NCBI GenBank assembly: GCA_036874045.1
Contig: CM072343.1
Span: 8,204,001 to 8,268,000 of the forward strand
Source: Cymodocea nodosa
Lineage: Eukaryota > Streptophyta > Magnoliopsida > Alismatales > Cymodoceaceae
Length of the DNA stretch: 64,000 nt
Direction of reading: 5' to 3'
Below the pieces are notes generated by a model that saw only the letters and a program-made list of their open reading frames with translations, searched no databases and was not told the DNA's origin. The position numbers and the translations under genes were made by a program. Shown here in pieces: positions 21,899 to 50,460 of this stretch. How positions within the stretch are numbered: the stretch's first letter is position 1; every line of letters starts with the position of its first letter.

Positions 21899-21934
21899 GT
21901 AAAATTCTTATTATAAAAACATTTGTGTATTACT

Positions 21935-22030
21935 GGTTCATTGAGTTATCATAACACAACAGAGATGGTTCGTTGAGTTATCATAACACAACGGAGATGG
22001 TTCGTTGAGTTATCATAACACCACGGACAT
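21935..22030 (+). repeat. Three tandem 32-bp repeats in the S1 5' LTR
   Basis: The units are 21935-21966, 21967-21998 and 21999-22030, each starting GGTTCRTTGAGTTATCATAA. The 3' LTR has two units (32305-32336 and 32337-32368). One unit accounts for the 30-bp length difference between the LTRs. Confidence 0.9.
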
Positions 22031-22104
22031 AGTTCGTTGGGTTAGCTACAGTACTTGTCACGTGAAATGGCACATGAGGAACTCGTTAAGTTAGAAACGT
22101 TAAG

Positions 22105-22116
22105 TTATATATATAC
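22105..22116 (+). promoter_or_regulatory. TATA-like box of the S1 LTR
   Basis: TTATATATATAC lies in the expected position downstream of the G-box cluster, with a purine- and A-rich leader following. Promoter use is inferred. Confidence 0.5.
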
Positions 22117-27340: not shown

Positions 27341-28923
27341 AATGCTTAAACTCCACATAAAAAGATAAATATTATTGATGATGTTGTTCACCTCATAGAT
27401 ATTATATACTTATTATAAATATCTAAAGTAATATCTAAACTGCTGCTTAAGATACTATGTATTTATTGTAAAATCATAGTAGTATCTTATTGATTTTAAG
27501 TAGTTTATCAATTTTAATGGTTTTTACGATTTTAAGTGGAAGTGTAAATGAAAAACATTAAATACTTCTGACATTCTGAAATTTTGATTAAATGTTTTCT
27601 TTGAATTAAGGAAAATGCATATGATCATGCATAAATTTGACTTAATTCATTAAACTTGTAGAATAAGTTATATGTAACTCATCTTAAACTATTAATCAAA
27701 AGTATAAGCTTATTGAAACTGATTCATATTCTCAATACAATCATAGAAGTAAAAATTGTATGAGATTTGTGTTTTATTGCATCTGTATTAATGGAATACA
27801 TATATACTGTGCTTAAAATGAAAAGTGCTTACAAAGTGAAAATCTTTGAGAGTTTATTGATCAGTTTGATCACGAGCCTTTTGTACTTGAGTAGATAGGT
27901 ATGTAAGGATTGTTGTCCTAAAAAAGGATTCTTTAAATCTGGCAACCTAAGGTCCTGATCAGATCTGGGATTGTTGACTGAAAGCTCATTACACGGGTAC
28001 ATTAGAAAGCTCTTGTATGATTCAAGCTTTTCAAACTAACTTTTCAAGAAAATTATCAATATTTACTGTTTTGAAAAGAAAAAGTTGTTTCATTAATTAC
28101 AGATATCTTTGAATCGCATATAGTTTATACCAATATGACTACTGATTTATTGAATCAACATTAGTACTTTTGAAAACGTTTATTTGAGATACATTCTTTT
28201 ATTCTCCTTGAATTAATCGAATTGAGTTCAAAGTTGTGTTTTGATTCATATACAGTAGGAATTGATTCTGGAAATCATTTTTCATGATGTCAGGATAACA
28301 GAAGTCTCTGAAAATAAAATGTAAAAGTATAGTTATACTTAACATCTATTGTCACTACAAATATATTTTGTATTTTGATTGAATATATTTGAAGTATATT
28401 TGTAGGGGGAGCATTAACAATGTCAAAAACAGATTAATATAATTTAAAATACAAATCTTAGTTAATCTGAATTAATGTCCTCTTAAAATCTTGATGAAAT
28501 AATTTAAAAAGACAAACTATTCTAGATTCAAAAGACAAACTGATCAAATAGTTTACAATGTTCTCAAGATAATGTTAAGTTTAGCATGTGTGTTGTTTTC
28601 GAAAGGTTTTAGTTGGAAGCATCCGAAACTTGTTTAAGTGTACTAACTAGACGTTATATTAGATAAGGTAACGTGTAAAACTGCCTCTAGACAACGTTTT
28701 ACTCGTTAGGTTAGTTAACTCAACGAGTTATACTTGAATATTTCGGGTACCTTGATTGAATAAACTTTATTCAATATTTATTTAATTTCTAAACCCGACT
28801 TATCTTCACGTTGAGTTATACTCCTAAAAACCCTATTTAAACACTTATAACACAGGGACTTAGGTTATTTGTAAACTTTGTCAAGAAAATCTTTCCCGCT
28901 TGTTGCTGTTACAACCTGCGACG
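27341..28923 (+). other. Post-pol noncoding region of S1
   Basis: About 1.6 kb has no ORF. It is duplicated in S0 (from 16991), and a long part of it is homologous to the minus strand of element A at about 35640-36800. A hairpin-forming ACTCGTTAGGTTAG/TTAACTCAACGAGT pair lies near 28700-28730. Confidence 0.8.
28700..28900 (+). promoter_or_regulatory. Possible internal promoter for ORFx
   Basis: CCCTATTTAAACAC (near 28832) resembles a TATA box about 85-90 bases before the ORFx ATG. Upstream are a CGTTAGGTTAG...CTCAACGAG inverted repeat and the ACAACGTTTTACTCGTTAGG motif also found in the LTR. S0 has the same layout (CCCTATTTAACAAC near 18181). No transcript evidence is available. Confidence 0.35.
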
Positions 28924-31188
28924 ATGGTCTCCAAGTTCTACAAAGGTCGTGGCAGAGGAAAAGGCAAAAGCAGAAGAGATGCAAAAGGAAAAGAAATAGA
29001 GAATGATGAAGTTCCACGTACTTGGTTCAAGAAAATATTTCGAGTGGACAAAAGGTTAGAAGAACTTTATAGAGATTACTTCTTTTCTCAGGATATATTA
29101 GATGAAGTTAGACAAGAACTTCAACATACTTATGCAAGTATTACATACATGGGTATTCGAAGTAAATATGATAGAGAATACAGAATGAAATGTGCTGAGA
29201 TTGCATTTTTGGAACAGTATGCAAAATATTTGGAAAAAGGTGTAGGTTCATCAAATAGAACTCCTCAAACTCCTATAAATGGTACAAGACTACATGCATT
29301 TAAGGAAGAGCATGAATCAGCTGTCCCTACTCCTTTATATTCAAAACAAGTAGAATCAGATATTACTGTAGACAAAACAAAAGTTGATAGTCTTCGAAAG
29401 ACTATTGCAATAGAAAGTGCCTTAGAAGAATTAAAGCAGAAAACTTTTATGGAGCAATTTGAAAAGAAAACAACAATACTTGAAAAGGAGAAACAGAAAT
29501 GTTATAGAAGAAGGAAAGTCAGAAAAATTATGTCTAAGGAAACAAAGTCTATTGAAAAAGGAAAATCAGATGAAAATTTATTTTCAAAGGACAATGTATG
29601 TCTAGACATTGTACCTTTTTGTGCATCTAATAAACTCATCAGTTCCGAACACACTGAAACTGATGAAGATAATGAGACTTTATTTTCCCTTGCTAGAAAG
29701 CTTGAGAAGAAATCCAAGTCAAATATAAGCTCAAGTTTTTCTATTAGTACAAGTCCTGATGATGCAGAAATTGACAAATCAGAGCATCAGGCACCTGACA
29801 TTGAACAAGTTATTGCAGATATAATTGACAATGTTGAGGCAGTAACTAGTTAAAAGGCTGAATTGTCTGGAGTAGCAGATATTGAAATTGTTAAGACTCC
29901 AGAAGAGCTAAAAGTTAACCAGCCTTCTACGGAATCTATAGAAGCAGAGTTTGAGAATTCACAACATGAATCAATGGAAATATCTGTTGAACAAAATGAA
30001 CAATTACAGACAGATACACTGGCTGTAGAATTTGTAGAAAAATTGTACTCTGAACATTCTATAGAGACTGAACAGATGAATGTTGAGCATATTAACAACG
30101 TTCCTAACACTGTTGAAGCTGAGGAATCAAGCTTACCTAAGCAGCTTCAAGATAATATTTTGGAAGAGGAACAACATGACATTCATTTTGAAGAAGAGGT
30201 TCCTGAAGATGAATTAAACTCTGAATCACGACTTCAGGTATCACCTTCTTTGTGTACAATGTTAAACATTCAAGGTAATACAATTCATTTTAGATCTGAA
30301 GAAGCATTGCAGAAATACAATAATCTGATTATATGTCAGATTCTGCATGCTCGTCCAATAAAATTCAGAAATTTGATGGACATAAGAGATCTATTTGAGT
30401 TTCAAGGCCTCATTAAATTCTTGCCAGTAGGAACGAAATGGAAGCAATACACAGAGCTTATTGCAACTTTTTATAGCAATCTGGTCAAGAATGGAAATTT
30501 TCTGAAAACTCAAATAAATGAATAGGAGTTTATATTGTCTTCTGAATTAATTTTTGAAGTTTTAGGATTAAAGAATGAAGGTGTTGTTGTTACCAACAGA
30601 TTTGACATGATAAGACAACTGGAATGGAACATTCAGTCTTTATCAAAAATTTCAAATGTATATTCTGAAATGAGATTAATGGAAAATCTGAATGCAAAGG
30701 CAAGGTTTATTGCAAATATATTGCATGCAAATTTATTTCAGAGAGTTGGACACAATATGGAAGTCAGAAGAAGTTGTTTATATGCAACTTATAGCTTGCT
30801 GAATAGAATTCAAATCAATTGGTTTGATGTTTTCACTTCTCAACTACAGCATATGAGTTCAAAGTTATTTTATGGTGATGCTGTATGTAGACTCAGCCAA
30901 TTGAATTTATCTGACTAGCCCTCTGAAACTAAAGGCATGAGAGCATTTAGTATCAAAGATTTGCAAAAATTTCAGGCCATGCATAAACCTCAATGACAAC
31001 AACAACAACAACCTGATACAAACCATATACAATAACAACAACAACAAAGTTATTCAGTTCAAGTAGAACAGCAAACGCAGCTACCTCCTGACTTAGATGT
31101 AGTGCTTAATGACATCAGAAATGATATTAGGCATCTAGGAGATAAAATATGTAATGCTATAAGTGATATACTTAGGAGGGGTTGCTAA
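28924..31188 (+). pseudogene. ORFx of S1, ORF in the env-like position
   Basis: The frame runs about 755 codons from ATG 28924 (MVSKFYKGRGRGKGK; an in-frame ATG also exists at 28900) to TAA 31186-31188, with in-frame stops at 29851, 30523, 30916 and two in the Gln-rich tail. Regions: basic N-terminus, Lys/Glu-rich coiled-coil-like part, acidic Glu/Ser-rich middle, conserved block (IRDLFEFQGLIKFLP, TFYSNL, LGLKNEGV, ANILHANLFQRVGHNMEV, NRIQINWFDVF, SKLFYGD), poly-Gln, and a C-terminal helix. No signal peptide or membrane segment is visible, so it does not look like an envelope protein. It is clearly homologous to ORFx of the gypsy element A. Function unknown. Confidence 0.85.
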
Positions 31189-31686
31189 CTGTCTTTGTTT
31201 GTTTCTGAATACAAAATGTAATATTTGTATTACTTGTTTGATTCATTGAACAATACATTTTTCTGTAAATGTCTTCAATTATTATTCTTGTTTACAGAAA
31301 GAGTTGTAATTATATCTCTTATATATGTATATATATTCTTTGTAATTATCTTTTCGATTAATGACAAAAAGGGGGAGAAATATTATAAAAAGATGATTAT
31401 GATCTTAATTGCATATATATATTATAAAAGGAGATGCTATTTAAATGGTTATTGTAATCTGATAGATGATAATTAGAAAACTAATACTTATATAATTATT
31501 GACATTTGAGAGTTTTTAATTCTGAGAGGTAAAATTTACACAAACAATAGAAATAAGCTTAAGTGAACTTAAGTCAACAAACAAGTTTGTTGAATTAAAA
31601 GTTAACCCAACGAAGGTGCTTTGTTGAGTTATACATATTTCATAATTGATTTAATATGGTTTTGTCATCATCAAAAAGGGGGAGAT
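31189..31686 (+). other. S1 3' noncoding region with two polypurine tracts
   Basis: AAAAAGGGGGAGA at 31366-31377 and AAAAAGGGGGAGAT at 31673-31686 (next to the LTR) are near-copies about 300 bases apart. S0 has the same pair. Multiple polypurine tracts are a known Sirevirus feature. The ORF at 31225-31476 is not supported. Confidence 0.85.
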
Positions 31687-33266
31687 TGTTGAGTATTTTT
31701 GTTTTGATGATGTGTGCTGAATGAAAATAATCATATTTGCTCAATTACTATTACTTGTGAAAAGAAATTAAAATCATCAATTAATACAGAAAAACCTACT
31801 GATATAAATACTTGTGTGTATTGGATCTGAAGTTAATAACTAGTCGTTTCGTTGCATTAATTTCTCATTTAACTAAACGTTAAGTTAACGTGTGTTTTTA
31901 TTGAAAAGCATGATATGTTTTAATGTTATATCTTCTGTATCATGAACAGTGCACGTTTAGACAACTCGTTAAGTTAGAGTTTTGTTTGTATAGAGGTCAC
32001 GTGAGAACTCGTTAAGTTAGAGGCTTAAAGGTTAAAATAGGTCACGTGATAACTCGTTGAGTTAGTGAGTAAAAGAAGAGACGAACTCGTTAAGTTAGTG
32101 TTATACACGTGGTGAAATTATAAGTTACGAATGTTGTATTGTATCACGTGAGGTGCACATGTTTAACTCGTTAAGTTAACATAACTAAATGCGTTGAGTT
32201 GCTATATTGAACACTAAGTCAATGCGTTAGGTTAGTGTTATAAACTTAAGTTGTTATTTTTGCATGTGGTAAAATTCTTATTATAAAAACATTTGTGTAT
32301 TACTGATTCGTTGAGTTATTATAACACAACGGAGATGGTTCATTGAGTTATCATAACACCACAGACATAGTTCGTTGAGCTAGCTACAGTACTTGTTACG
32401 TGAAATGGCACATGAGAAACTCGTTAAGTTAGAAACGTTAAGTTATATATATACTTGTGTTACTCGTTTAGTTAACATTAAAGTAACGATTTCTTATTAC
32501 ACTGATGAAAAACTTTTGGACGAGAAAGTTTATTTTGCAGGAAATTTTTCAGAGATCTAGGACTGATGATTAAAGAAAATTCGAAATATAAACATGGGTT
32601 AGAACGTGTGTGTTTCGATGAAGGAAAAAGAAAAGACGTGGAGAAGTGGAAAACTGGTAGTGGTTAAATGTGAAGGATATGCATGAAATGAAGATACAGT
32701 ATAAAAGGCATAGAATTCTCGTTGATCAATTTATCATTGCACATAAAACGAAAAATCTTTTCAAGGATCAAATCATCCCTACACACCAAAAGAAAAATCT
32801 TTTTCAGTGATCAAAAACACCTTCTCAGGGAAAATCTCTCAAGTGGAAGAAAGTTCAGTGAAGCATAAAAAGGTAAGATTTTCGTCACTGAAGATTTGAA
32901 GTATCAAAAGAAAGCAAATTCGGTGAAGCATGAAAAGACAAGATATTCGTCACTGAAGAATTGCTGAAGAAGAAAAAGAAGAAGAAGAAAGCTCTCAAAC
33001 AGGGAGAAATGTTTTAAATTCCGCAAATTAGTTTTCTCTATTTGTAGTTATGAAATTGTTTAGATGATACATGGTATCGAAATATAATTGCATCTACAAT
33101 TTCTGAAGAGAATTGAATTGTATATTGTAATTGAAACCTTGAATAAAAATGATTTTATGAAAACAATGTCTCGACTTGTTTTTGTGTTTTAAAGTTTCAA
33201 TTATATTTCAGAAAATATTAAAAATACAAAATTCACCCCCCTCTTGTGTAGCCATACGATCCTACA
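31687..33266 (+). repeat. S1 3' LTR (1580 bp)
   Basis: It begins TGTTGAG directly after the polypurine tract, ends CCTACA and is followed by the target duplication CTTCT. It has two 32-bp tandem units instead of the three in the 5' LTR. Several CACGTG sites are mutated relative to the 5' copy (for example GCATGTGG). Confidence 0.95.
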
Positions 33267-33718: not shown

Positions 33719-33992
33719 TGTTCATGTTTTCCCAGCACTACACTAGAAAAACTTGGATTTGTTACTTCTATTTTTTACTTAGTTAATTTATCTTTATGCC
33801 TATTCTTTCTTTTAGAAGTAAACAAACAACCTTTAATACAATTTAGATATTCATTCCAATTTGTACTTTAACTGCAAGTGCACAGTGTCTATTGTATCAG
33901 TGTGCAAGTACAGGTTGATCCCACAGGGAATTGCTAACGAATTTAAGAAATGTTTGATTGTGAACAATTCAAATTTATATTCAATAAGCACT

Positions 33993-34050
33993 CCGTTGAG
34001 TTACAGTTAACTCAACGGACTAAGTTCGTTGAGTTATGGCTAACTCAACA
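33993..34050. repeat. Two CGTTGAGTTA/TAACTCAACG hairpins in the A LTR
   Basis: CCGTTGAGTTA (33993-34003) pairs with TAACTCAACGG (34008-34018), an 11-bp stem with a 4-base loop. GTTGAGTTA (34028-34036) pairs with TAACTCAAC (34041-34049), also with a 4-base loop. The same pair is in the right LTR near 48893-48950. Confidence 0.9.
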
Positions 34051-35092
34051 GACTATCCTTATGGACTTAAGTTAACTCCACGAGCCTGTCTCTTCTTTAT
34101 AATACTACTATTTACAAAGGAATTCGGCCAACCATTGGGCGATTCCACAGATTGTAAATAACATCAATTAAGCTTTTTAATGCTAGTTAACATTGGATTT
34201 ATCATTATGCAATACTAACATTCAGATGATTCAAATAGTAACCATTAAAATCTTTAAGTTGTTTTGTACGAACCAATTTCAATAAACTGTAAAATTAAAA
34301 CTAACATACAACAATCATAAAACTGATACAGATAACATTAATCACAATACAACACTAACAATACAACACTCAAATACAACATACAAACAAAGATAAATTG
34401 TTTTTGGTATTTTTGTTTTGATGTGAACATAGAAATGGGCGAAAGGTGAAATTTAAAGTAATTGCACTTGACAGTAAATACTTCCGACACAACTTGCAAC
34501 GCGATTACACCACTGAAAATTGAACCACTTACAATTCTGTCTCCTCTTTCTATAGAATCGCGAGTCCAGAATTGCAAGATGATCTCCTCTTCAGCATACA
34601 GGCATCAACCCGAAGCCAAGGCTAAAAGCTTTACGATCTCCTGAAATATAAGTCGGCACTTGGTGAAAATGTCTTCCCTTCCCGCGACACGATCACCCCT
34701 CACAGTGGTTGTCAGGCACTGTGTTTGGCTCGGAATCGACCCGACATTTAGCAAGTATCCTCTGAGACCTTCGATGATTGGTGATTATGGTGGTGATAAC
34801 GATGGTTGGTGTGACACTTCGGAGAATCGCCGATACTATCTGCAGAAAGCTCGGTGCTCCTCCTCTGTATACACTAGCCATCCATCGATCACACTCTTTC
34901 TTTTTTTCTTCTTTTCTTTTATATTTCCTTAGTGGTAACTGCTTCTGCTTGAATGATCGGTTGGATTTCCTTCCTTCAGATCAACGGCAATGATTTCTTT
35001 CTCCCTATGCGATTGAATTCCTACGTGATACGTGCGAACGTGGTTTTTCCTTCCAACTGTCTGTTCCTGCAACCGCTACAATGGCATACTAG

Positions 35093-35103
35093 AAAATATA
35101 TAG
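35093..35103 (-). promoter_or_regulatory. TATA-like box of the A LTR
   Basis: On the minus strand it reads CTATATATTTT. Directly downstream is a conserved CACTGTAGCGGTTGCAGG-like stretch shared with the LTR at 58600 (near 59492). The right LTR has the same box near 49990-50000. Confidence 0.5.
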
Positions 35104-35582
35104 TCTGTGGAGTTACAGATAACTCAACGGACTTCCTTCGTTGATTTAACTACAAAACACGTGCAAAAATTACAACTTAAGTTTATAATGCTAACCTAAC
35201 GCGTTGCCTTAATGTATTTTCATGTAACTCAACGCGTGTAGTTATACTATCTTAACGAGTTATAACGTAAGTAAATCTACCAGCTCTCAATACGTGTCAG
35301 CAGCAGTTTAAACATAAAATAACATTTCGGAGAGTTACAGGTATAACTATCTGATGCTCAGATGCATTTTCGGATACTTAAGAATTTCACAGCCTGCAAT
35401 TTACCGATAGTTCATAAATGTACTAAATTAACATTAATTCCCCAAAATTAAGCAGATTCTTCAATTAAAGCATATAACAGTGCAATTATAACATAATGGC
35501 TTAATTCTCATATGATAAGCTAAATATTATGCAATTAACCATCATTTAACCGTTAATAATATGCACTTTTTCATTCTAAACA

Positions 35583-36905
35583 CTTTCACCATACCTAAAT
35601 TTTGCTAGTCCCTTAGCAAACTAAGATCTAATTAATTGGTCTTTCAAAAAGTGCTAGAATTAATTCTCCCCCTTTTGTTTTTTTTCTTCTGTTTAGCATA
35701 AACATTTATTCTGTATGTTTCAGTAATCAACCTACAAAGATATTTAGAATATATGTAAATTACATACAAAGTATATCATCTTCATATAGGTGTTAATTAT
35801 ATTATCGTTTGTTCTTCTTTTTATCATTTGTAATCCTGAATTTTCCAATAAGTTTTTCTAGAAGAAATTTCAACAACATACAAATTAAAGTACAATCCAA
35901 TTCAATCTGATTAAGACAAGTAGAATAAAGAATTGTATTTCCATTAAACAACTTCAAAAGTCAATTCCAGATTCATATTTCAGCAATTCTAGATAACAGA
36001 AAATATACTCGATTCATAAGATATCTGTATTTCACAAAACACTTGTATCTTTTCAAAACAGTATATGTTTTTTTTTTTTTTCTTTTTTTTTTTTGTACTT
36101 TAAAAGTTAATTTGACAAGCTTGAATCATGCATGAGCTTTCTAATGTACCCATGTAACGAGCTTTCAGTCAACAATCCCAGATCTGATCAAGATCTTAGG
36201 TTGCCAGATTTTCAGAGTCCTTTTTCAGGTCAACAATCCTTACATACCTATCTGCTCAAGTACAAAAGGCTCGTGATCAAACAAGTCAAGGTTTTTTTTT
36301 TTTTTTTCTAAAAATAAATGCACACACAAAACAAAGCATTAATCACATACTGTATATGCATGTATTTCATTAATACAGATGCAATAAAATATCAATCTCA
36401 TATAATCCTGCTTCTATCATTTACTAAAGATATGAATCCATAACAATAAGTTCATACTTTATCTGTAGTTTAATAAGATCTACACAAAAATCATTCTACA
36501 AGTTCAATCAGTCAAAGTAAATGTATCTTTCATCATATGTGTTTCATTTAATCTAGAATTCACATCTCAGCTCCTTCAGGACTTCAGATAATTTTCTGAT
36601 TAAGCATTAAATATTCTGATTTCATTTTAAAATCGTGAAACTGTTAAACTCATGAAATTCAGAAAAATCATAAGATACTATATCTAGATTTACATAAATA
36701 ATAAATTCTATAGCATCTTCTATAGCCTTCTAAATATAACATTCAAGCAGTTTATAAAAATTTTACAGTCTCAATTATCGGATAGTTACAGCAAGTTCAT
36801 AAAAATTTTCAATTTCCTCAAAACTTTGCAGTACCATTTTAATTCCTTTAATTAACAAACTTACATGGCTGTTACTTTAATTACCTCCCCCCCATACCTA
36901 CATTT
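35583..36905 (-). other. 3' noncoding region of element A, largely Sirevirus-like
   Basis: It lies between a polypurine-like tract at the LTR (35583-35600) and a second G-run tract at 36885-36894 preceded by TTGAGGATAATGC. Most of the interior (about 35640-36800) read on the minus strand matches S1 from about 27430 to 28400. Shared pieces include GGCTCGTGATC/GATCACGAGCC, the TACCTATCTGCTCAAGTAC stretch and a GGTTGCCAGATT motif. Poly-T runs lie at 36070-36092 and 36292-36307. Confidence 0.8.
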
Positions 36906-37345
36906 TGCATTATCCTCAATGTAAAAGATTTGACAATAAGTACAGTAATTGTAGCAGACATGAATAAAGTTTTGTTTGATTTAAAATTCAGGATAAGTAA
37001 TTGGTTACATACCTTGTTCCATTTGTATCTCTTTCTGCATATTCCGATTTTTGATTCTGAAAAACTTTTCATTCCCAGATAAACACAGAATATAAAACAA
37101 AATAACATTTAACAGATATTAATAAATCAGTGTCTTGTATGGAACCCAGGTTCCTATGCCTTTGGTGGCTCACAAGCAAGCTAGTTGGTTTCCCAGAACA
37201 AATACCAACAAACTGGATTGATATTTTGTTTTGTTTGTTTTTTGTTTTTTTTTTTATAAAATGAACATGAAAAACTTTAAAATTCTTTTTTTTTTTTAAA
37301 TAAATAAATGCAGAATACACAACATTAAACACACAAAATCACAAC
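36906..37345 (-). other. Spacer between polypurine-like tract and F-box gene
   Basis: It is AT-rich with poly-T runs near 37240 and 37290. Small ORFs here have no recognisable domain. Confidence 0.4.
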
Positions 37346-38485
37346 TTAAGAACATGATTGAAAAGTAGAAACAAATGGAATAAATGTATCAGTCCAAGCA
37401 AACTTTTTAGGCATAGTTCTTCTTGCTATTAATTCTGTTTTAATGCAGTTCTTGGTCCTTTTTAATTTGTAAACATGCAATATATTATAAATTCCAAATA
37501 CGAGTGTATTACCATTAATGATATGTACTGCAGAAAGGGATCCTTTCTGGTTCCAAGGTAATGTAGCAGTTTCTATTTCTACATCTATTTCAATATACTC
37601 CTCTTCCCACTTCCATTCATTCATGTCTTCCATAATCCATATTTGAAATTTCATCAGTTCATCCCACCATCTTATCAAACATAAAGTAGGATCATCTTAT
37701 TCATTATACCACATTCCTATTTGAATTTTATTAAATTTTTCAGATGGTGGTTTAGCTATTTCACTCGGCGTAGGTAAAATTTCTGTATAATCATCATAAC
37801 TGTTTATGCTCACTATGTATAAATCAGATCTATATGCTATTGATATCTCTGTGACTAAATAAATATAACCATCAAGTATGGCATGTGTTAGGTTAATTAA
37901 TGATTTCTGTCTTAGATATATTATAATGTTTTCATTCCAAGATCTGTTTAGAAAATTATACACACTTAAGCGTAAATCTTCACCCCAATTTCCTGTAGGT
38001 CTCCAATAATATATATTTTTAGAAATTGCAGAATTTTTATCAGAAAATATTAAAATTGACCCACAATTTTCAGTTGGTGCTTCAAATATATTAGGTCTTC
38101 CTATATTACATTCTTCTCCTGTTATAGGATTTCTTATCAAAATCTCAGGTAATGATAAACTTGCATACCTTGGTCTCGTCTTATATATGATTAATCTTTC
38201 ATCTATCCCCATAATATGACTCATTCCTTCTAATGCATTGGGTGGAATTCCAGTAGATTCTTCCATAGCCAGATATTCATGGGTATTTGAACTACGATTA
38301 AATGACCTCCATATGAATCCATCTCTAATCTTAGTCATTTTTGCAACTTGTAGTCCCTGAAAATATTTTTCTTCAATACAGTCTTTAATATCCTTTGATA
38401 CACAACACATCCTACATAGATCTTTAGCTGACAAGTTACTTAGTATTTCCCTTTGTGCATCCAATGGTAATTGCATTAATTCCAT
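37346..38485 (-). pseudogene. F-box protein gene carried in element A (one in-frame stop)
   Basis: This is a 380-codon frame interrupted once, by TAA at 37697-37699. The N-terminus is a clear F-box (LPLDAQREILSNLSAKDLCRMCCVSK, given here as LPLDAQREILSNL followed by KDLCRMCCVSK), the part that binds Skp1 in SCF ubiquitin ligases. The rest (about residues 50-380) resembles plant F-box-associated domains: RNPITGEECNIG, IYYWRPTGNW, HAILDGYIYLVTE, then WWDELMKFQIWIMED and a C-terminal WTDTFIPFVSTF. It has no intron-like gap. It lies between gag and the 3' polypurine region, on the element's coding strand, with a 195-base hairpin-bearing spacer to gag. It was probably captured from a host mRNA. 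The substrate is unknown. It is much less decayed than pol. Confidence 0.85.
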
Positions 38486-38680
38486 TTGTCGATTCTGTAA
38501 AATAAAAACAAAAATTTAGCAGAGACAAAAATTAACATAACTAATGCACACCCTCTTGGAGTTAAGGCATAACTCAACGGACTAAGTTCGTTGAGTTAAA
38601 AATTAACTCTACGATACTATTAACTTAAAATAAAAATAAAAACATATATACATACAGATAGTTGCTTCAGATATGCTGCT
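38486..38680 (-). other. gag to F-box spacer with hairpin arms
   Basis: GGAGTTAAGGCATAACTC and CGTTGAGTTAAAAATTAACTC (38557-38613) form the same class of short inverted repeat as in the LTR. Confidence 0.6.
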
Positions 38681-40024
38681 TCATTTAGCTGCCCTCCTAG
38701 AAGAGGTATCAATTTCATTAATCGTTCTATTGACAGGATTAGGTATAGCTTGTATTGGCAATCCTCCAGTAGGTCTAACTTCCATTGGTTCCTTCTGTCT
38801 AAGTGGTATATTTCTATTCTGATTTTGATTTACAGCATTTCCAAATATAAATTCTAGACGATTGTTTACTTGTTGGATTATCTTTTCTAATTTCTCTATT
38901 CTAGTTCCTTATTCAATTAATACTTCATAACTTATGTTCTTCTCATTTATATTTTCTCCTCCCTGAAAATTGTTGTTTCTCCAAGATAAATTCGGGTGAT
39001 TTCTCCAATTAGGATTATAAGAATTTCCCATGTTATCTCTCTGGTTTCTAGCATAAATAATATCTAACTCATTTATGTTTGTATTCTTTTCTTCTAGCTT
39101 TTGATTTAATGATAACTCTTCTATTTTCCTTGTTAATTCATTTAATTTCACCTCAAGCATAGTATTGGAATCTATTTCATACTTTCCTCTTGGCAATAAT
39201 CTTTTATCTATAATAGCTTCAGCCGAATTTTTCCACTGTGTAGTTCTTTTTGCAAAATTTTCTAAATATGCCCATGCTTCTTCACTACATAATTTTAAAA
39301 ATCCATTTTGACAAGTAGATTCTAATAAAGATTTCGTTGAAACATCTATGCCTTCATAAATTATGCCTATTAATTGTGCTTTACTCATTGCATGATGTGG
39401 ACATTGAGTCAGTAAATCTTTAAATCTTTCAAAATATTTCCAAAATGATTCACCCTGTTTTTGGCTACACATTAATATTTCTTTCTTCTTTTTAATTGTT
39501 TGATGTGTTGGATAGTATTTTTCCAGAAAAACAGAGCAAAATTCAGTCCATGTAGAAATTGAATCAAGCGATAGAGTATATAACCATCTCTTAGCTGTAT
39601 CTTTTAAAGCAAAAGGGATATATCTAAGTTTAATAGCATCTATACTCATGTTCGGCATTCTCATCATTTGACAAACTTCGTTAAATTCTCTAAGGAAATA
39701 ATAGGCATCCTCTCTTTCTAATCCATGAAAATGTGGCAATTGACTAATATAATTAGATTTCAGTTCAAACCTATCTCCATCAAAGTTTGGCAATCGAATA
39801 CATGAAGGTTCATCAATTAATTCAAGATATAAAATCTCTCCTAATGGTTTTTCTACTAGAGCAGTCATCTCTACATTCTCTTTTAAAGAAAGGTTAGCTA
39901 CACCCCAAAGAATTTCGTTAAAGTTTAGTTCAGAAAATTTTTCAATACTCCTTTGCAATGAAAATTCCTGGATAGGTCTTCTTACTAATCGCTTAGTGCT
40001 TAGAGAATGAGTCCATGTGCTCAT
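38681..40024 (-). pseudogene. gag: Athila-type gag (capsid) gene of element A, downstream of pol
   Basis: The frame of 447 codons from ATG 40024 to TGA 38681-38683 has a single in-frame stop at 38909. It would encode the particle protein. Order: RLVRRPIQEF near the start, FELKSNYISQLPHFHGLERE, LRYIPFALKDTAKRWLYTL, FWKYFERFKDLLTQCPHHAM and GIIYEGID (capsid), then a Lys/Glu-rich stretch, YNPNWRNHPNLSW (the hallmark Athila gag motif) and a C-terminal coiled-coil-like tail. No zinc knuckle is present; one sits alone in the first ORF after the primer site. The gene lies about 950 bases downstream of ORFx and 3.8 kb downstream of the integrase, whereas gag normally comes first. Confidence 0.9.
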
Positions 40025-40973
40025 AAATAAATAACAGAAGATTAATTATATACCAGTCTGAAGCTTTCCATTCTATAAATATTTGTTGTTGGATGAAGGT
40101 TGAATCAGTTGCTTCTCCTTCCAGTTCCTCCAATGCTTTCTCCTTTCTCTTAAAAGTGCTGGTAACTCGTAAATAACATTCTGTTTCATATATATATTGC
40201 GCATCCATAAAGTGAATAAATCTTGTTGCAAGAACGTGTCTTGCAACGTGCATCGTGGTTCCTATTTTAATGGGTACGTGTACCACTACTAATTTCAAAT
40301 TTTGGTAACCGCTAAACCGACGAAGTTTCGTTTGTGGTTAAAAGAATAACCATTCTGCTTAATCCACGAACTAACCTCGTTGAGTTACAGATTACTCAAC
40401 AGAACATAGTCGGTTACTGTTGCTAACTCCACGGACTAACTTCGTTGAGTTACAGATAACTCAACGGAGTGACCTTATATTATATTAATGACCTCGTGGA
40501 GTTACGGTTAACTCAACGGAATTACTTCGTTGAGTTAACACTTGGAAACTTCTAAGTTTCACTCTCGTAAGTTTTCTATTCTATTTTTTTTTTTCTTTGT
40601 TTTTCATTCTGCTAACTGTAATAAAGTTAAATCTATGTCATTAATGCCTCATTTTGATTAAAATACATTTAAATCTGAACATTATATAAAGATTTAAATT
40701 GTAGGTCATTTTAAGTTATGCAGAATTTACATTTTACCTTATAACATGTAGAAATTTTTAAGCAGTTATCCTGTCATTCAGCAAATTGTAAATTTGTTAC
40801 ATATTCATAAAGTTCCACAAATTACATAATATTCAATAAATTCCATTCATTTCACATTCAAATACATATGAAAATTGCATCAGAAAAATTATATTCATTA
40901 ATATGAATCAATTACATTACAAGTACATCATACAATTTCATACAATTTTACATAAGTAGACGAACAATAAATT
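40025..40973 (-). other. ORFx to gag spacer, hairpin-rich
   Basis: At 40378-40545 there are at least four CGTTGAGTTA/TAACTCAACG-type pairs, the best at 40443-40452 with 40457-40466. A TTGCAAGA/TCTTGCAA pair is near 40230-40250. The ORF at 39993-40298 overlaps the gag start and has no recognisable domain; it is probably leader. Confidence 0.6.
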
Positions 40974-43196
40974 TTAATCTCTATGCCTAAGTTCATCTAC
41001 TTCCTTCTGGAGTTTTTCTAATTACTGCTCTAATTGATTTATCCTCTCTACTGCTCTTACAATTTCTCCAGAAGGTACAGCTAATTCTACAACTACAAAA
41101 TTTCTGTATTCTTTCACTGAAATGGTTCTAGATCTTATCCTTTTTGATGTCCATTTAGTGAAATCAATACTATCCACCATCAACAGTGGAATCAAATCTC
41201 CATAAAATAATTTCTTCTTCACTGTTTTCAGCTTGGAGATAAAAACTACAGACCAATTTATTTGGATCTTATTTACAACTGCATACGTGGCCCATTTGAC
41301 AAATTGACTTAATTCTATGTCATGGCCCTATCGTTGATAGACATTCTTAATCAGAATGTTAGCTACCATGTGTGCTTTACCATTTAAATGCTTCAATCTG
41401 TTTAATAATGGCACACCAGGATTGATAGCTAAACAATCCTTAATTTGCTGCTCAGTCCATTAAACTGCAGTTGTATCTTCCAAAATTTTTGTTCCTTCAT
41501 TCTTTAAACTAAATATGTTGTGGAGAAGCTCTGGTGTTATCTGTACATCAGCTTCCTCCACGTTTGAAATTAATCCTCCTTCTCCTTGTCTTAAATTTGC
41601 ATATAAACAGGACACTAAATTCTCATATACTGCATGCCCACTTTCTTGAGATATAAATTGCAGTAGACCTTGGAATTCAAATAGATCTTTGATTTCTTGC
41701 ATTCCATCCCAATTTACTGGTCTACTGTAAATAATATCGTAACCCCTTATTTCTTGGTATTTGGTATAAGCTTCCTGACTACAAAAATGTACTTCATTCA
41801 AAATTGTTGTTTCAATCAGATCAAGAAGGTAACTTTGTTGCTCCAAAGGGGTTTGCTCTTGCTCTTCCTCTAGCATAGGCTGCATTTGGACATTCTTTTC
41901 AAATTCCTGAATTTTTGCTTTTGCTTCTGTCTATGGTGGTGAGCCGGCAAAACTCTCCACTCTGTCTTGAATTCTTTCCATAATTTGCTGAAGAGTTTCT
42001 TGCTCTTCAGTGGAATCTGTGAAATTATTTTTGTCCAAATGGCTTCTTTCAGCCTCTTCATTTTCTACTCTTTCTTCTTCCTCCTGACTACCAATCTGTT
42101 CTGTTACTGTTCTTTCTGATTTTGTAACAGATTGGGATGGAGTCACGGGCAATTCAGTTTCTACCCTAACTTTTGTTTCTTCTCGTACAGACTGCAAACT
42201 AATTTTAGCCTGATTTTTTTCTTTTCTTTGCTCCTCCTGCTCCTTAGATTCGGATAGCAGGTTAATAAAAATCTGCTCCATAGGCCCTGTAAAAATTGGT
42301 ACTTCAGATTTAATTTCTTCATAATCAAGCACTTTTTCTTTTTCTTTCTTTTTTCTGATTAGTTGTGCCTGTTCTTCCTCTTCATCTTCTGAAATTAAAT
42401 CTACAAAAATAGGCTCTGCAGGCTTTCAAACCACAGGTATTGACTCTTCCTGTTTAATTCTTCCAATAATTGCTGGTCTCGAAGGACCAGCTTCAGCTTC
42501 TTTTGCAGCATATCTAACAGCAGTTCTAATAGTAGCTTCTTGATGTTGTTCCACTTTAATTTTATATTGGACTTTCAACTTTTCTGTAGCCCTCTTTTTG
42601 TACAGTGCATCAAACACCAGGTGTGCTTTAGCCACTACCAAATCTTCTGATTCTCCTTGGTTTTTTCCAACTTGAACCAATTCTGCAAATTCTCTTATTT
42701 CTTCTTCAGTCAAAGGCCCCATCATTTCTACTCGTGCCAATGGCTTAAATGGTGGAACTAAAGGTCTAGACTGCTGCTCCTCAGGAACAGGTCTTTCAGC
42801 AGTTGGTTCCTCCCGTTCTTCAGTTGCCTCTTCATTTGCTTTCCTTTCTTGCTCCTAGATCACCCGTTTAACTTGTCTACAGATTCGTCTTTTGAACCAG
42901 AGTCGGGACTTACGCTGGATTAATTCTAGGGCAACTTCATTACTTGGCCTTATTTGTCTTTCCTTGCTTACAGCTATTTCTGTTGCTATTCTGATTCGTG
43001 TTTCCATTATTTGAGGTATTTGTATATCCATATCTACTAAATCTCTTCTAAACTTGAAAAGTTCTGATTCTACCTTCTGTAGCTCTTTCTCTCTTGTCGT
43101 ATTTCTGATCTTCTACCGCGTGTGCCACTCTTCTGATTCCTTCAGAAATTCTGATGTATCAACATCTTCCCAGAATTCAGGCGTCATCTTCCTCAT
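40974..43196 (-). pseudogene. ORFx of element A, homologous to Sirevirus ORFx
   Basis: One frame of about 740 codons runs from ATG 43196 (MRKMTPEFWEDVD) to TAA 40974-40976, with about seven in-frame stops (for example near 43115, 42857, 42426, 41931, 41460, 41335 and 41022). The N-terminus is basic and helical, the middle acidic and Glu/Ser-rich. The conserved block has IKDLFEFQGLLQFIS, LVSCLYANL, IFSLKNEG, ANILIKNVYQR, GHDIEL, VNKIQINWSVVF and KLFYGD, followed by a C-terminal helix. The S1 ORFx has the same blocks in the same order and a similar total length, although the elements belong to different superfamilies. It occupies the env position but has no visible signal peptide or membrane segment. 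Function unknown. Confidence 0.85.
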
Positions 43197-43844: not shown

Positions 43845-45042
43845 ACTAAGTAAAACTCGAGTAGTCCTCTACTCTGACTTCTTCTATAATTCCAAAGGAG
43901 CTTTTTGGTGTTTTCAGAATAGGTTTAAGTCTTTGTCCATTTACTTTAAATATATTCTGATTTTTAGGATTTTCAATTTCAATAGCTCCATAAGGATAAA
44001 CATTTCGAACTATGTAACGTCCTACCCATCTAAATCATAATTTTCCTGGATGGTTATGGAGTCTAGCCATATAAAGATAAACTTATTGTTCTATTTCAAA
44101 GTTTTTAGGAATAATTTTTCTATCATACCAGAATTTAATTTTCTCTTTTTCTCTTACAGTCTTTGAATAAGCTTCATTTCTAAATTCTTCTAATTCAATT
44201 AGTTGCATTTTCCTATTTTCAGTAGCTTGATTTAAATTAGTGTTCAGAGTTTTTAATGCCCAATAAGCTTTATGTTCTATTTCAGTAGGTAAATGACAAC
44301 TTTTTCCATATACTAGCTTAAAAGGTGACATACCTAAGCTCGTTTTATAAGCAGTTCTATAAGCCCAAAGTGCATCAATCAATCTATTAGCCCAATCTGT
44401 TCTAGTAGGATTTACTACTTTTTCCAAGATTAATTTAATTTGTTTGTTTGCACTTTCTACTTATCTACTTGTTTGCAGATGATATGATGTTGCAATTTTG
44501 TGGTTTATTCTAAATTTCTTCATTAAGGCTTCAAAACTTCTATTACAGAAATGAGTTTCTCTATCACTGATAATAGCTTTAGGTATTTCAAATCTAGCAA
44601 ATATATTTGTTCTTATAAATTGTATTACCACTTTGTTATCATTACTTTTTGTAGGAATAGCTTCTATCCATTTAGATACATAATCCACCCCCAACAGTAT
44701 GTAATTAAATTAATTAGACATAGGAAATGGACCCATAAAATCTATTCCCCACACATCAAAGATTTCAACCTCAACAATAGGATTAAGAGGCATCATATTC
44801 CTCTTTGATATTCTTCCTATTTGTTGACATCTTAAACAACTTAAGCAATATTTATGAGCATCTTTGAATAGTGTTGGCCAATAAAACCCACATTGCAGAA
44901 TTTTTGCAGTAGTTTTCCCTGAACCAAAATGTCCTCCACAAGCTTGGTCATGACAAAAAGACAATATGCTCAAATATTCAATTTCTGGAACACACCTCCT
45001 TAAAACTAGATCAGGACATTTCTTAAATAAGGGTCTTCCCAA
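43845..45042 (-). pseudogene. Integrase of element A
   Basis: The zinc-binding part reads CHDQACGGHFGSGKT then CLRCQQ. The core has Asp in DVWGIDFMGPFP, Asp in SDRETHF (usually SDRGTHF) and Glu near VESANKQI. The C-terminal part has [32 protein letters not shown] and VNGQRLKPIL. Stops occur near 44710, 44461 and 44083. No chromodomain follows, as expected for Athila. Confidence 0.9.
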
Positions 45043-45080
45043 TAGTAATATTTTACTCTTGAGAAAAACAATTTCTTATC

Positions 45081-46589
45081 CTATCTATTCCAATCCTTAG
45101 GTGTTAAACCAGTAACTAAGTAACTAACTATGTCTGCATACAAAAGCATTGTGTTGATAGTCATTAATTGTTCATCAGGAAAATTATCCTTAATTTTAAT
45201 ATTTGATTTTTCTATTTGTAATCTTGATAAATGATCTGCTACTACATTCTCACAACCTTTTTTATCTTTCATTTCTAGATCGAATTCTTGCAATAATAAT
45301 ATCCATCGGATCAATCTAGGTTTAGTTTCTTTTTTCTTTATTAGATATTTTAGAGCTGAATGATCCGTGTATACAATTACTCTAGCTCCAATCAAATATG
45401 ATCAAAACTTTTCTAAAGCAAACACAACAGCTAATAATTCTTTTTCAGTAGTTGTGTAATTAACTTAAGCATCATTTAAGGTTTTGCTTGCATAATGAAT
45501 CACTCTAGGAGATTTTTCTATTTTCTGTCCTAACACTGCTCCTATAGCAAAATCAGAAGCATCGCACATTAATTCAAACGGATGGTTCCAATTAGGTGCT
45601 TGAATTATAGGAGTTGAAATTAAGCTAGTCTTAAGTCTGAAAAATGATTCCTTGCAATTTTTATCAAAGTTACATGGAACATCTTTTAATAGATTAGTTA
45701 AAGGTCTAGCTATCTTGCTAAAGTCTTTAATAAATCTTCTATAAAAACCAACATGTCCTAGAAATGATCTAATATCTTTTACTGATTTAGGTTCTGGTAG
45801 ATTAGAAATTACTTCTATTTTAGCTTTATCTACTTCCAATCCTTTTTTAGAACCAACATACCCTAACACTATTCCTTGTTTAACCATGAAGTGACATTTT
45901 TCCCAATTTAAAACCAGATTTTTTTCCACACAGCGTTTTAATATTTGGTCTAAATTGCTTAAACACACTTCATATGAGTTGCCATATACAGTAAAATCAT
46001 CCATAAATATTTCTAAAAATTCATCAGTCATTCCAGTAAATATGCCCTGCACACACCTTTGAAAGATAGCTGGTGCATTGCATAATCTGAATGGCATTCT
46101 TTTAAAAGCATAAGTTCCATTAGAACTGGTGAAAGTTGTTTTCTCTTGATCCTCTAATGCTACTGGAATTTGATTATACCCTGAATACCCGTCTAGGAAA
46201 CAAAAATATTCTTGCCCTGCTAATCTTTCCAGCATTTGATCTATAAAAGGTAAGGGAAAATGATCTTTCCTAGTCACAGCATTCAGCTTTCTATAGTCTA
46301 TACATACTCTCCAGCCTGATTGAATTCTAGTAGGTATCAAGTCTTGACTTTCATTCCTAATAACTGTTAATCCCGATTTCATGGGAACTACATGGATTGG
46401 ACTAACCCACGAGCTCCCAGAAATCGGATATATTATATCATTATCTAACCATTTAACTATTTCCTTCCTGACTACTTCCTTAAGGTTTGGATTTAATCTC
46501 CTCTCAGGAATTCTAACAGGTTTAGCATTCTCTTCTAAATATATGTGGTGGCAGCATAAAGTTGAACTTAACCTTTTTATATCAGTCAT
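45081..46589 (-). pseudogene. Reverse transcriptase and RNase H of element A
   Basis: RT motifs are present in order: VVRKEIVKWLDNDIIYPI, WVSPIHVVPMKSG, WRVCIDYRKLNAVTRKDHFPLP, FLDGYSGYNQI, the active site FMDD and LGHVGFYRRFI. RNase H starts at FELMCDASDFAIGAVLGQ, followed by [12 protein letters not shown] and ADHLSRL. There are in-frame stops near 45465 and around 45400. Between RNase H and integrase the frame shifts. Confidence 0.92.
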
Positions 46590-46592
46590 AGT

Positions 46593-47395
46593 TCATCCTA
46601 TTGCTTGTTTATAACTTTTTACTATATCTTTTAATTTAGCTATTTGATCCTCTTTCAAATCTGAAGCAATAATGATTGAATAGGTCTGTTTATCTTCCAA
46701 AAATATATAGGTTAATTCAGGAGGTAAAGGTTTTAATTCTAAATGCTGCCCATCAGAAGCTAGAGCTCCTAATTGAACATCATCATTTTTTAAATTAATT
46801 TCTTCCTGATCTCCTTCTATATTTATGTTTTCACTTTCTTCTAAAGTTTCAGAATTGATTTGCCTATTTAATTCTTCTTGAATCACATCATCTAACATAT
46901 CTCCTTCATCCTTTAAAAAGTCTATGGTATGTAAGGACATTTCTAAATCCTCAAACCTTTCTAGTTTGAAAATATTTAATTGAGTATCCTCATTACCATA
47001 TGCTAACTTCATTACTCTAGTTTTACAATTTATAACAGCCCCTGATGTTGCTAAAAATGGTCTTCCCAAAATTAAAGATGTATCACTATTTTTATGCTTA
47101 ATTTGTTGGGAATCCAAAATTACAATATCAATAGGATATATAAAATTCTTGATTTTAATTAAGACATCCTCTATTTTTCCTCTAGGATATCTTATACTTC
47201 TATCAGCTAATTGAATAACCGTACTAGTAGGAGTTAAGCCTTCTAATCCTAAGGATGCAAATATATCACTTGGCATAACATTTATTCCTGCACCTAAATC
47301 TATTAAGGTTCTTTCTAGAATGGTATTTCCTATGGTGCATGATATAACAGGGATTCCAAGATCAGATAACTTTTTAGGAATTTGTGGCAAAAATA
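46593..47395 (-). pseudogene. Aspartic protease of element A with acidic linker
   Basis: The retropepsin has the active site DLGAGINVMPS and [11 protein letters not shown]. An acidic linker with no known domain leads to the RT, joined by one stop at about 46590. A frameshift lies between this part and the upstream ORF. The pre-protease segment (CAKFLKDWCTKK, near 47440) is recognisable but broken by stops. Confidence 0.88.
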
Positions 47396-48489
47396 GGTAA
47401 CTACTTTGCTCAGCTAAAAAGACTTTTCTAAGAACTTTTCACTCTCTTTTCTTAGTACACCAATCCTTCAGAAATTTAGCACAAGGTAGCATATTCTACA
47501 ATAGATCTAACAAAGAAATGTTAACTTGTACTTTTTCAAAAAAATTCTCTGATTTTTTCTTGTTTTTCAGGAATTGTTTGTTGTAATCTTTCAGGATAGG
47601 GTGCTAAAGATTTTGATTTCAAATACTCTTTTTCTTTCAGTTGATTTGTTTGATCATTTTTAGCTTCAATTGCAGATTCAGATTGTTCTTTAGTGATTTC
47701 TAGATTTTCAACTATTACATTTTCATTATCATTTTGATTTCTACTCTTGTCCGCCTTCATATCATTTTCATTTTGAGTTCTTGGTGGTATATCAGTTCCA
47801 GATCTTAATGATACACATACATCTTCCAGATTTTCGTTACTTTCATGATATTTTTGTATATCATTTTCGTGATTATGATCTTCAATTGTTTTTAGTTTTA
47901 AAGTGCATTCTTTAAATTCTCTTACATTAGTGTTTTCTGTTTGTTGTATATTTTGCAAGTTGTGCAGGTTTATAACATTATAATTTTCATTGTCCTATTG
48001 TAAAACTTGTATTTTCATTGCATTTTTGTCTAATGCTTTTAATTTTGTTTCCAGATCATCTAATTTCATTGCATTCAATTTTTGATCAATTTTCTTTATG
48101 GCTTTTTCAGTTTCGTAAATTATATCCTGTTTAGGTTCTGAATATGCCTCCTTATAGTTTAATTGGTTGACTTCTTGTTGTTGACACACAAAGTATTCCA
48201 GTTTGTCTAGATTTTGCTCTATACTATGCTCCAGTCTGTCATAACTATCCTAAACTTCAGTGTCTCTCATCATATTACACATTCTATACTGACCATCAGT
48301 TGGGTAAACTATAGGATTCTCATACTCGGTTCTATTATATCAAGGATAATTCATTTGTTGTTCATGGGATCTATCAATCTGTAAATGTCTCAATTTCAAA
48401 CAATCAGAAATGTCGTGTCCTTTAGAATTGCAGAATTCACATATGCTAATTAAAGGTTTCAGAAATCTTTGAGCATAAGCATATGCCAT
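47396..48489 (-). pseudogene. First ORF of element A: zinc knuckle without capsid
   Basis: It starts at ATG 48489 (MAYAYAQRFLKP), 105 bases after the primer site. A CCHC zinc knuckle (CEFCNSKGHDISDC) follows at once, then a helical Gln/Lys/Glu-rich region with no known domain that leads into the protease. In-frame stops lie near 48340, 48245 and 47995. Copies at 56531-57599 and 61009-61938 begin the same way, so the capsid-less start is a family trait and not a local deletion. Confidence 0.8.
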
Positions 48490-48593: not shown

Positions 48594-48611
48594 TCCCTGG
48601 CAACGACGCCA
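48594..48611 (-). other. Primer binding site, tRNA-Asp type (element A)
   Basis: On the minus strand it reads TGGCGTCGTTGCCAGGGA, close to the Athila tRNA-Asp site TGGCGCCGTTGCCGGGGA, seven bases from the LTR end. Confidence 0.9.
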
Positions 48612-48618
48612 TAAAACT

Positions 48619-50460
48619 TGTTCGTGTTTTCCTAGCACTACACTAGAAAAACTTAGATTTGTTACTTCTATTTTTTACTTAGTTAATTTATCTTTATGCC
48701 TATTCTTTCTTTTAGAATTAAACAAACAACCTTTAATACAATTTAGATATTCATTCCAATTTGTACTTTAACTACAAGTGCATAATGTCTTTTGTATCAG
48801 TGTGCAAGTACAGGTCGATCCCACAGGGAATTGCTGACGAATTTAAGAAATGTTTGATTGTGAACAATTCAAATTTATATTCAATAAGCTCTCTGTTGAG
48901 TTACAGTTAACTCAACGGACTAAATTCGTTGAGTTATGGCTAACTCAACGGACTATCCTCGTGGACTTAAGTTAACTCCACAAGCCTGTCTCTTCTTTAT
49001 AATACTACTATTTACAAAGGAATTCAGCCAACCATTGGGCGATTCCACAGATTGTAAATAACATCAATTAAGCTTTTTAATGCTAGTTAACATTGAATTT
49101 ATCATTATGCAATACTAACATTCAGATGATTCAAACAGTAACCATTAAAATCTTTAAATTGTTTTGTACGAACCAATTTCAATAAACTATAAAATTAAAA
49201 CTAACATACAACAATCATAAAACTGATACAGATAACATTAATCACGATACAATACAAACAATACAACACTCAAATACAACATACAAACAAAGATAAATTG
49301 TTTTTGGTATTTTTGTTTTGATGTGAACATGGAAATAGGCGAAAGGTGAAATTTAAAGTAATTTCACTTGACAGTAAATACTTCCGACACTACTTGCAAC
49401 GCGATTACACCACTGAAAATTGAACCACTTACAATTCTGTCTCCTCTCCCTATAGAATCGCGAGTCCAGAATTGCAAGATGATCTCCTCTTTAGCATACA
49501 GGCATCAACCCGAAGCCAAGGCTAAAAGCTTTACGATCTCCTAAAATATGAGTCGACGCTTGGTGAAAATGTCTTCCCTTCCCGCGACGCGATCACTCCT
49601 CACAGTGGTTGTCAGGCACTATGTTTGGCTCGGAATCGACCCGACATCTGGCAAGTATCCTCATAGACCTCCGATGATTGGTGATTATGGTGGTGATAAC
49701 AATGGTTGGTGTGATACTTCGGAGAATCACCGATACTATCTGCAGAAAGCTCGGTGCTCCTCTATATACATTAGCCGTCCATCGATCACACTCTTTCTTT
49801 TTTTCTTCTTTTCTTTTATATTTCTTCAGTGGTAACTGCTTCTGCTTGAATGATCGGTTGGATTTCCTTCCTTCAGATCAACGGCGATGATTTCTTTCTC
49901 CCTACGCGATTGAATTCCTACGTGATACGTGCAAACGTGGTTTTTCCTTCCAACTGTGTGTTCCTGCAACCGCTACAGTGGCATATTAGAAAATATATAG
50001 TCTATGGAGTTACAGATAACTCAACGGACTTCCTTCGTTGATTTAATTACAAAACACGTGCAAAAATGACAACTTAAGTTTATAACGCTAACCTAACGCG
50101 TTGCCTTAGTGTATTTTCATGTAACTCAACGCGTGCAGTTATACTAACTTAACGAGTTATAACGTAAGTAAATCTACCAGCTCTCAATACGTGTCAGCAG
50201 TAGTTTAAACATAAAATAACACTTCAGAGAGTTACAGGTATAACTATCAGATGCTTAGATGCATTTTCGGATACTTCAAAGAGTTACAGTTCATAAATGT
50301 ACTAAATTAACATTAATTCCCCAAAATTAAGCAGATTCTTCAATTAAAGCATATAACATGCAATTATAACATAATGGCTTAATTCTCATATGATAAGCTA
50401 AATATTATGCAATTAACCATCATTTTACCGTTAATAATATGCACTTTTTCATTCTAAACA
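48619..50460 (-). repeat. Element A right (5') LTR, 1842 bp
   Basis: It matches the left LTR over its length with scattered differences. It contains the 57-bp module at 50055-50111 shared with S1, the TATA-like box near 49990-50000 and the CGTTGAGTTA hairpins near 48893-48950. Confidence 0.95.

Follow-up and report, generated by a model that had tools for sequence, protein, structure and literature searches.

An F-box reading frame shared across an Athila-type retrotransposon family of Cymodocea nodosa, and a probable facultative intron that holds the capsid frame

Several plant long terminal repeat (LTR) retrotransposons, among them Bagy-2, Ogre and BARE1, produce spliced RNA (PMC3735527, PMC6317226). 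For the env-like gene, splicing has been proposed in Diaspora (PMC1142308) and reported in Bagy-2 (PMC3735527); in Diaspora a single open reading frame (ORF) covers the gag core, the zinc finger and the protease, and its description proposes that splicing of the genomic RNA could remove an env-like gene in one step (PMC1142308). Ogre carries a facultative intron between its gag-pro and pol ORFs, whose removal joins both (PMC6317226), and attempts to amplify DNA copies of spliced BARE RNA from barley did not succeed (PMC3735527). According to a review of additional ORFs, in which the term F-box does not occur, transduced genes number one copy or a few (PMC7264820). Here we describe an F-box frame enclosed by a 16.7-kb Athila-type LTR retrotransposon on the minus strand of a 64,000-nucleotide stretch of Cymodocea nodosa DNA (assembly GCA_036874045.1, contig CM072343.1, positions 8,204,001 to 8,268,000; hereafter the window). 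In the literature titles and abstract openings surveyed, no F-box ORF was described as a family-wide gene of a retrotransposon.

The element resembles Athila4, Calypso, Diaspora and Bagy-2 in its long LTRs, its tRNA-Asp-type primer binding site, the order protease, reverse transcriptase, RNase H, and the presence of ORFs after pol, but differs from the Athila lineage in that its capsid ORF is placed 3' of pol, within an intron and apart from the CCHC ORF, and in that its accessory gene is an F-box gene. Like Ogre, it is a plant Ty3/gypsy element in which a facultative intron would control which frames are translated; here, however, the capsid ORF is located within the intron, and excision uncovers the F-box gene. 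As in BARE1, splicing would yield a subgenomic RNA for one product (gag in BARE1), but in C. nodosa the spliced junction is found at 191 genomic places, and these spliced copies look like the event proposed for Diaspora, acting on the capsid gene. With the gene-capturing elements of maize (Bs1), rice and sorghum it shares an additional host-like ORF in sense orientation, which in this case is carried family-wide. Our best explanation is that the F-box ORF is a fixed, family-wide accessory gene of a high-copy Athila-type family, situated close to the position of the env-like gene in related elements, that an intron governs whether capsid or F-box protein is made, and that the latter serves as an adaptor of a Skp1-Cullin-F-box (SCF) ubiquitin ligase; to this explanation as a whole we assign a probability of roughly two in three.

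An earlier, sequence-only reading of the window had reported an F-box frame with one stop between gag and the 3' end of the element, on its coding strand, and both statements hold. The frame consists of 379 codons plus the terminal stop, with a single in-frame TAA (positions 37697-37699), and follows the gag ORF (40024→38909) and precedes the 3' LTR. PF00646 matches its residues 4-41 (E = 2.1e-9, 37.3 bits, cut-off 20.5), and in copy L002 (translation P0001; L numbers designate loci), in which the frame has no stop, the same profile gives E = 7.9e-10 and 38.7 bits (cut-off 20.5). The longest open stretch of the window frame, 262 codons compared with a maximum of 131 in 2,000 same-length dinucleotide-Markov sequences, is not a product of chance. 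Residues 172-333, in the C-terminal half, show a weak match to the plant F-box-associated domain TIGR01640 (F_box_assoc_1; E = 3e-5, 23.5 bits) that stays under its cut-off of 37.9. Two sequence searches of the PDB returned three chance-level rows (best E = 0.86) and none, respectively, and a search of viral contigs yielded four pattern stretches and no relatives. Beside this frame, no second F-box match was found within the window.

The gene is a regular component of the family. A search of the C. nodosa genome (374.6 Mb, 28 contigs) gave 146 scored F-box matches among 6,110 candidates, each of 90-93% protein identity except for the window copy itself, and the possibility that the gene is unique to this copy thereby falls. 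Further copies with the F-box at the same place, which the earlier reading had suggested looking for, were found: the F-box is present in all 30 loci read (median pairwise identity 97.1%) and is followed in all of them by the element's 3' untranslated region (UTR; median 96.0%, minimum 61%, with UTR deletions in L023 and L025). Twenty-four of the 30 loci have the same capsid sequence upstream; in four of the remaining six the capsid is missing between the intron ends, L021 carries a different deletion, and the sequence upstream of the F-box is another one in L019. In ten copies traced over a further 10 kb on the upstream and 6 kb on the downstream side, LTR sequence follows the F-box region without exception, and the order from pol to the F-box is retained in eight (some with gaps), L007 and L015 starting inside the env-like ORF. 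All 379 codons are intact in 12 of the 30 top-scoring copies, a set chosen by protein score. In L043, upstream of copy L015, the 5' part resembles the unit at 27.6-33 kb of the window and the 3' part the F-box family, with the junction inside the env-like ORF; L043 is an apparent recombinant. Across the genome, the F-box profile gave 4,219 first-look candidates, of which 150 were scored, and some rows reach profile position 42 rather than 39-40 and may represent another F-box subfamily.

These loci also bear on the origin of the gene. F-box genes are numerous in plants, and a resident host gene could have been entered by the element; the element's 3' UTR in 30/30 loci and gag in 24/30 argue that the F-box is not such a gene, which also lies inside both LTRs and is followed by LTR sequence in every one of the ten traced copies. 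We regard host residence before the element as already refuted and give it next to no probability. Capture of a host mRNA, put forward earlier as the simplest origin, is a candidate for which no donor was found: the protein database gave no match to the F-box protein at E ≤ 0.001 (148 candidates) and none at E ≤ 1 (3,835 candidates). Many plant F-box genes are without introns, and mRNA and DNA capture are therefore not separable by intron absence. The description of the gene as intron-free is itself correct for the F-box frame, which has no intron of its own, but incomplete for the locus, since the neighbouring gag ORF on the 5' side is enclosed by an intron whose acceptor precedes the F-box ATG by 9 nt.

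This GT-AG intron contains the whole capsid ORF, whose ATG stands about 30 nt after the donor, and its end, TTTTATTTTACAG, is the sequence located 9 nt before the F-box start codon. The donor reads GTATAT in the window and GTATGT in five of six other unspliced copies examined, the search string not being found in the sixth, L031; 19 of 25 unspliced loci retain an intact acceptor AG. Exact loss of positions 40053-38495 was observed in L015, L016 and L018, and L030 shows the same loss with one base changed at the junction. These four copies were found among the 30 F-box matches without use of the junction pattern; L051-L054 were selected by that pattern, and their agreement with the junction is by construction. 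With at most two mismatches, a 24-base pattern of the spliced junction matched 191 genomic places and a 25-base pattern of the unspliced acceptor 1,531, while the reversed controls of both matched none. Pol is kept in L045, L047 and L049 (copies L016, L018 and L030, respectively), so that, of the parts seen, only this intron was removed. After splicing, the TGA of a short upstream frame stands 8 nt before the F-box ATG. That short frame (40054-40300), which runs up to the spliced junction, is uninterrupted in the window and five of eight copies; L033, L039 and L049 carry stops.

In a tree of 34 copies, the eight spliced copies require six changes and formed one side of a branch in none of 200 bootstrap trees, and an approximately unbiased (AU) test rejected a single clade of the eight (p = 0.0132); branching in this tree is shallow, and some of the changes could stem from recombination between copies. 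From the 191 junction places, the empty reversed control and the failure of the eight copies to form one clade, we infer that RNA spliced at the capsid intron has probably been reverse-transcribed repeatedly, and with ends at splice sites this is the simplest reading despite the shallow tree. Loss of the intron by deletion or recombination at the DNA level would fit with the deletions that other copies do carry, for example in L021 beside the F-box start, and recombination between copies may have spread one spliced form. Other deletions of at least 40 bp in the copy comparison, however, are not GT-AG and, apart from the slippage of one A-run, do not recur between copies, whereas GT...AG ends recur in the four copies found without the junction pattern (one base being changed in L030), the junction fits 191 places and the spliced copies are scattered on the tree. 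Moreover, counted as an unbroken run, GACTG before the gap and TACAG at its end have only the last base in common, so that a deletion would find almost no repeat to act on. We therefore consider a DNA-level origin very improbable. Two other candidates for splicing were rejected: L035, as an LTR-to-gag splice product, because its LTR is without its last bases, which indicates a deletion, and the T element at 56-58 kb, as a pol-spliced copy, because the neighbouring match is on the opposite strand.

The arrangement suggests how one precursor RNA could give two products. With the intron retained, capsid could be made; with the intron removed, the F-box ATG would come next, 8 nt after the stop of the short upstream frame, in a retrovirus-like switch comparable to that between gag and env in retroviruses. 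The predicted protein, with its N-terminal F-box, would bind host SKP1/ASK and recruit a host or element protein to an SCF ubiquitin ligase. As the class of target we favor a host silencing protein or another antagonistic protein, with the element's own capsid as the alternative. An AGO1-type role is a hypothesis by analogy with polerovirus P0, an F-box-type protein used by some poleroviruses against AGO1 (PMC6593998); the two are alike, by description, in being F-box-type proteins encoded by a parasite. The earlier proposal of capture followed by an anti-silencing function is partly supported. That the F-box protein acts instead on the element itself, for example through capsid degradation that limits copy number, would agree with capsid and F-box arising from opposite choices at one intron; its target is a conjecture, and we consider this version unlikely.

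Copies chosen by F-box protein score bias a test for selection on the F-box frame, and the main analysis was accordingly made on copies chosen by DNA pattern, 15 in number after L059, in which the F-box match stops after about 500 bases, was dropped from 16. Relative to a neutral model that controls for base and CG/CHG context, the ratio of nonsynonymous to synonymous changes (N/S) over all variants was 0.72 of expectation, a value as low being obtained in 14 of 2,000 simulations, and among singletons it was 0.63 (3/2,000); the other two reading frames gave 0.97 and 1.11. Inclusion of L059 raised the ratio over all variants to 0.85 (46/1,000). For the C-terminal codons, which lie outside the search query, 44 copies and the reference gave 0.69 for singletons (178/2,000) and 0.60 for shared variants (160/2,000), and the NG86 estimate of mean nonsynonymous over mean synonymous divergence (dN/dS) in the 15 copies was 0.56, without transition correction. 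The capsid ORF had an N/S of about 1 in 23 copies and the reference, a set selected by F-box score, and selection on the F-box and on the capsid is for that reason not fairly comparable. The data indicate modest past purifying selection on the F-box frame. Neutral evolution, named by the sequence-only reading as an outcome that would speak against it, is at odds with the full set of variants and compatible with the shared variants taken separately.

Several observations weigh against the best explanation. The shared variants, present in 2-12 of the 15 copies, had an N/S of 0.84 (589/2,000), which is not significant, nor is the value of 0.86 for the differences common to L051 and L054; stronger selection signals elsewhere stem partly from copies picked by protein score. 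The full F-box frame is intact in none of the 16 copies chosen by DNA pattern, and structure prediction for a 262-residue F-box piece gave a mean predicted local distance difference test (pLDDT) score of 33 without a usable fold. With regard to splicing, the well-supported (starred) branches of the tree by themselves require just a single switch of the spliced label, shuffled labels required a mean of 7.4 changes and were as low as the observed six in 54 of 500 cases, the acceptor AG is lost in six of 25 unspliced loci, including L002, L017 and L022 with an open F-box, and the T content of the intron (0.32) exceeds that of the upstream exon (0.26) and is not clearly above that of the F-box (0.31). 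The two-product switch is deduced from genomic copies, and ribosomes would have to reach ORFs at a distance of 8-10 kb from the 5' LTR; with pol kept in the spliced copies L016, L018 and L030, an internal promoter or further splicing would be needed for the F-box. In part, these points favor the view that a successful family acquired the F-box in a single capture and carries it as a functionless passenger, the intron being a by-product: all 16 pattern-chosen copies are broken, the selection signal is weak, and host-gene capture by retrotransposons is known (PMC7264820). Yet N/S falls below neutrality in the gene frame only, with an NG86 ratio well under 1, the frame is intact in the 12 protein-score-chosen copies mentioned above, and canonical splice sites stand right before the start codon, and we find a passenger gene somewhat unlikely, more probable than an F-box directed at the element itself and less so than an accessory gene with a function.

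The capsid ORF inside the intron is one half of a divided gag. The CCHC ORF at 48.4 kb and the capsid at 40.0 kb flank pol on opposite sides, the zinc knuckle being retained upstream of the protease and the capsid ORF being located downstream of the integrase; no capsid domain was found in the scanned pieces of the nucleocapsid-type ORF, and no zinc knuckle was seen in the capsid ORF. In surveyed Ty3/gypsy elements the order is GAG-PROT-RT-RH-INT (PMC6317226); our element has paired LTRs, a primer binding site and a target-site duplication (4/5 bases) and keeps PR-RT-RH-INT, but departs from the full order. Likewise, of the features of Athila-type elements, the tRNA-Asp-type primer binding site is present, and a single gag ORF with capsid and CCHC upstream of the protease is absent. 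A protein database search for capsid relatives returned 33 matches at E ≤ 0.001 among 1,872 candidates, of which five sequences were read: in P0004 from Tasmannia lanceolata, with 48% identity across 66% of the query, the capsid is followed by the protease in the same protein, and in P0002 and P0003 by a CCHC-type motif, judged by eye. The interpretation of the arrangement as a nested second element was rejected, since the order from 48.5k to 38.5k is co-linear in L041 (as one block) and in L031, L033 and L037 (with gaps). A second, diverged element of the window, at 8558-11949, is likewise split, with a zinc knuckle (11949-11470), protease, integrase end and capsid (9983-8558), and may be one uninterrupted split-gag element. 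A longer history can be sketched only tentatively, and we lean against it as a whole: the lineage may have split its gag, moved the capsid into a 3' intron and acquired a switch to an SCF-type F-box directed against host defence, and spliced RNA would then be packaged and inserted, giving rise to capsid-less F-box copies dependent on complete copies.

The features of the element are collected in Table 1. From 5' to 3', they follow as zinc-knuckle ORF (with the VSLRSG end), protease, reverse transcriptase, RNase H, integrase, env-like ORFs, capsid, F-box, 3' UTR and LTR. The LTRs are 94.9% identical, and from their Kimura two-parameter (K2P) distance we take the insertion to be 1.7-3.1 million years old, assuming rates of 1.3e-8 and 7e-9. 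The 5-bp flanks, CTAAT and CTAAC, agree in four of five bases. The letters of the primer binding site presumably match tRNA-Asp. In pol, the Asp_protease_2 match (E = 1e-4) lies just under the cut-off, and the integrase label is our assumption from position and similarity to other ORFs of the window. The 41.0-41.9 kb part of the env-like ORFs shares 30-39% protein identity with ORFs at 19.6-20.3 and 30.3-31.0 kb, and a Pfam scan of three pieces of the env-like ORFs gave no match above cut-off. A tRNA-Asp primer binding site is present in Diaspora and Calypso (PMC1142308).

Table 1. Features of the Athila-type element and its F-box gene, in window coordinates
Feature	Position	Strand	Evidence and remarks
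5' LTR	48619..50460	-	94.9% identical to 3' LTR
Primer binding site, tRNA-Asp-like	48594..48611	-	TGGCGTCGTTGCCAGGGA; adjoins 5' LTR; cf. PMC1142308
Gag nucleocapsid-type ORF, interrupted	47539..48489	-	CCHC zinc knuckle, VSLRSG motif; zf-CCHC_2 E = 0.038, below cut-off
Pol: protease, reverse transcriptase, RNase H, integrase	44083..47438	-	RVT_1 E = 1.8e-27, RT_RNaseH_2 E = 3.5e-16
ORFs at env-like position, 3' of pol, interrupted	41025..42854	-	Frames; env-like label presumed from position and within-window similarity
Upstream exon with short open frame	40054..40300	-	Splicing puts TGA 8 nt before F-box ATG
Facultative GT-AG intron, 1,559 bp	38495..40053	-	Donor CAGACTG^GTATAT, acceptor TTTTATTTTACAG^AATCGACAAATGG; holds gag capsid ORF
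Gag capsid (CA) ORF, Retrotrans_gag	38681..40024	-	PF03732 E = 5.8e-20; stop at 38909-38911, then 75 more codons
F-box ORF	37346..38485	-	379 codons, ATG at 38485, internal TAA at 37697-37699
3' UTR, purine-rich stretches before 3' LTR	35583..37345	-	96.0% median pairwise identity, 30 copies
3' LTR	33719..35582	-	K2P distance to 5' LTR 0.043

Units around GTTGAGTTA/TAACTCAAC recur at 34000-34090 in the LTR, at 38567-38614 in the intron and at 40356-40543 just upstream of the capsid ORF, and are possible promoter or hairpin repeats. Elsewhere in the window, a 6-kb unit occurs twice in direct orientation, at 16992-22925 and 27649-33266; its two copies are 87-96% identical and hold relatives of the env-like ORFs, and neither has a capsid or F-box match at E ≤ 1e-4. 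Between them, 23126-27340 is occupied by an element that we take to be copia-type; its open frame spans 1,210 codons, and a gag-like frame 178.

Retrotransposons are said to need to avoid packaging spliced RNA (PMC3735527). In this family, about 190 places with the spliced junction stand beside about 1,500 with the unspliced acceptor, which makes the packaging of spliced RNA directly measurable. Should the F-box protein be functional, an adaptor of a ubiquitin ligase would belong to the standard gene set of a plant mobile element present in more than 1,000 copies. The element would then have a route onto its host through protein degradation, beside sequence-specific anti-silencing such as that of VANC (PMC5735166).
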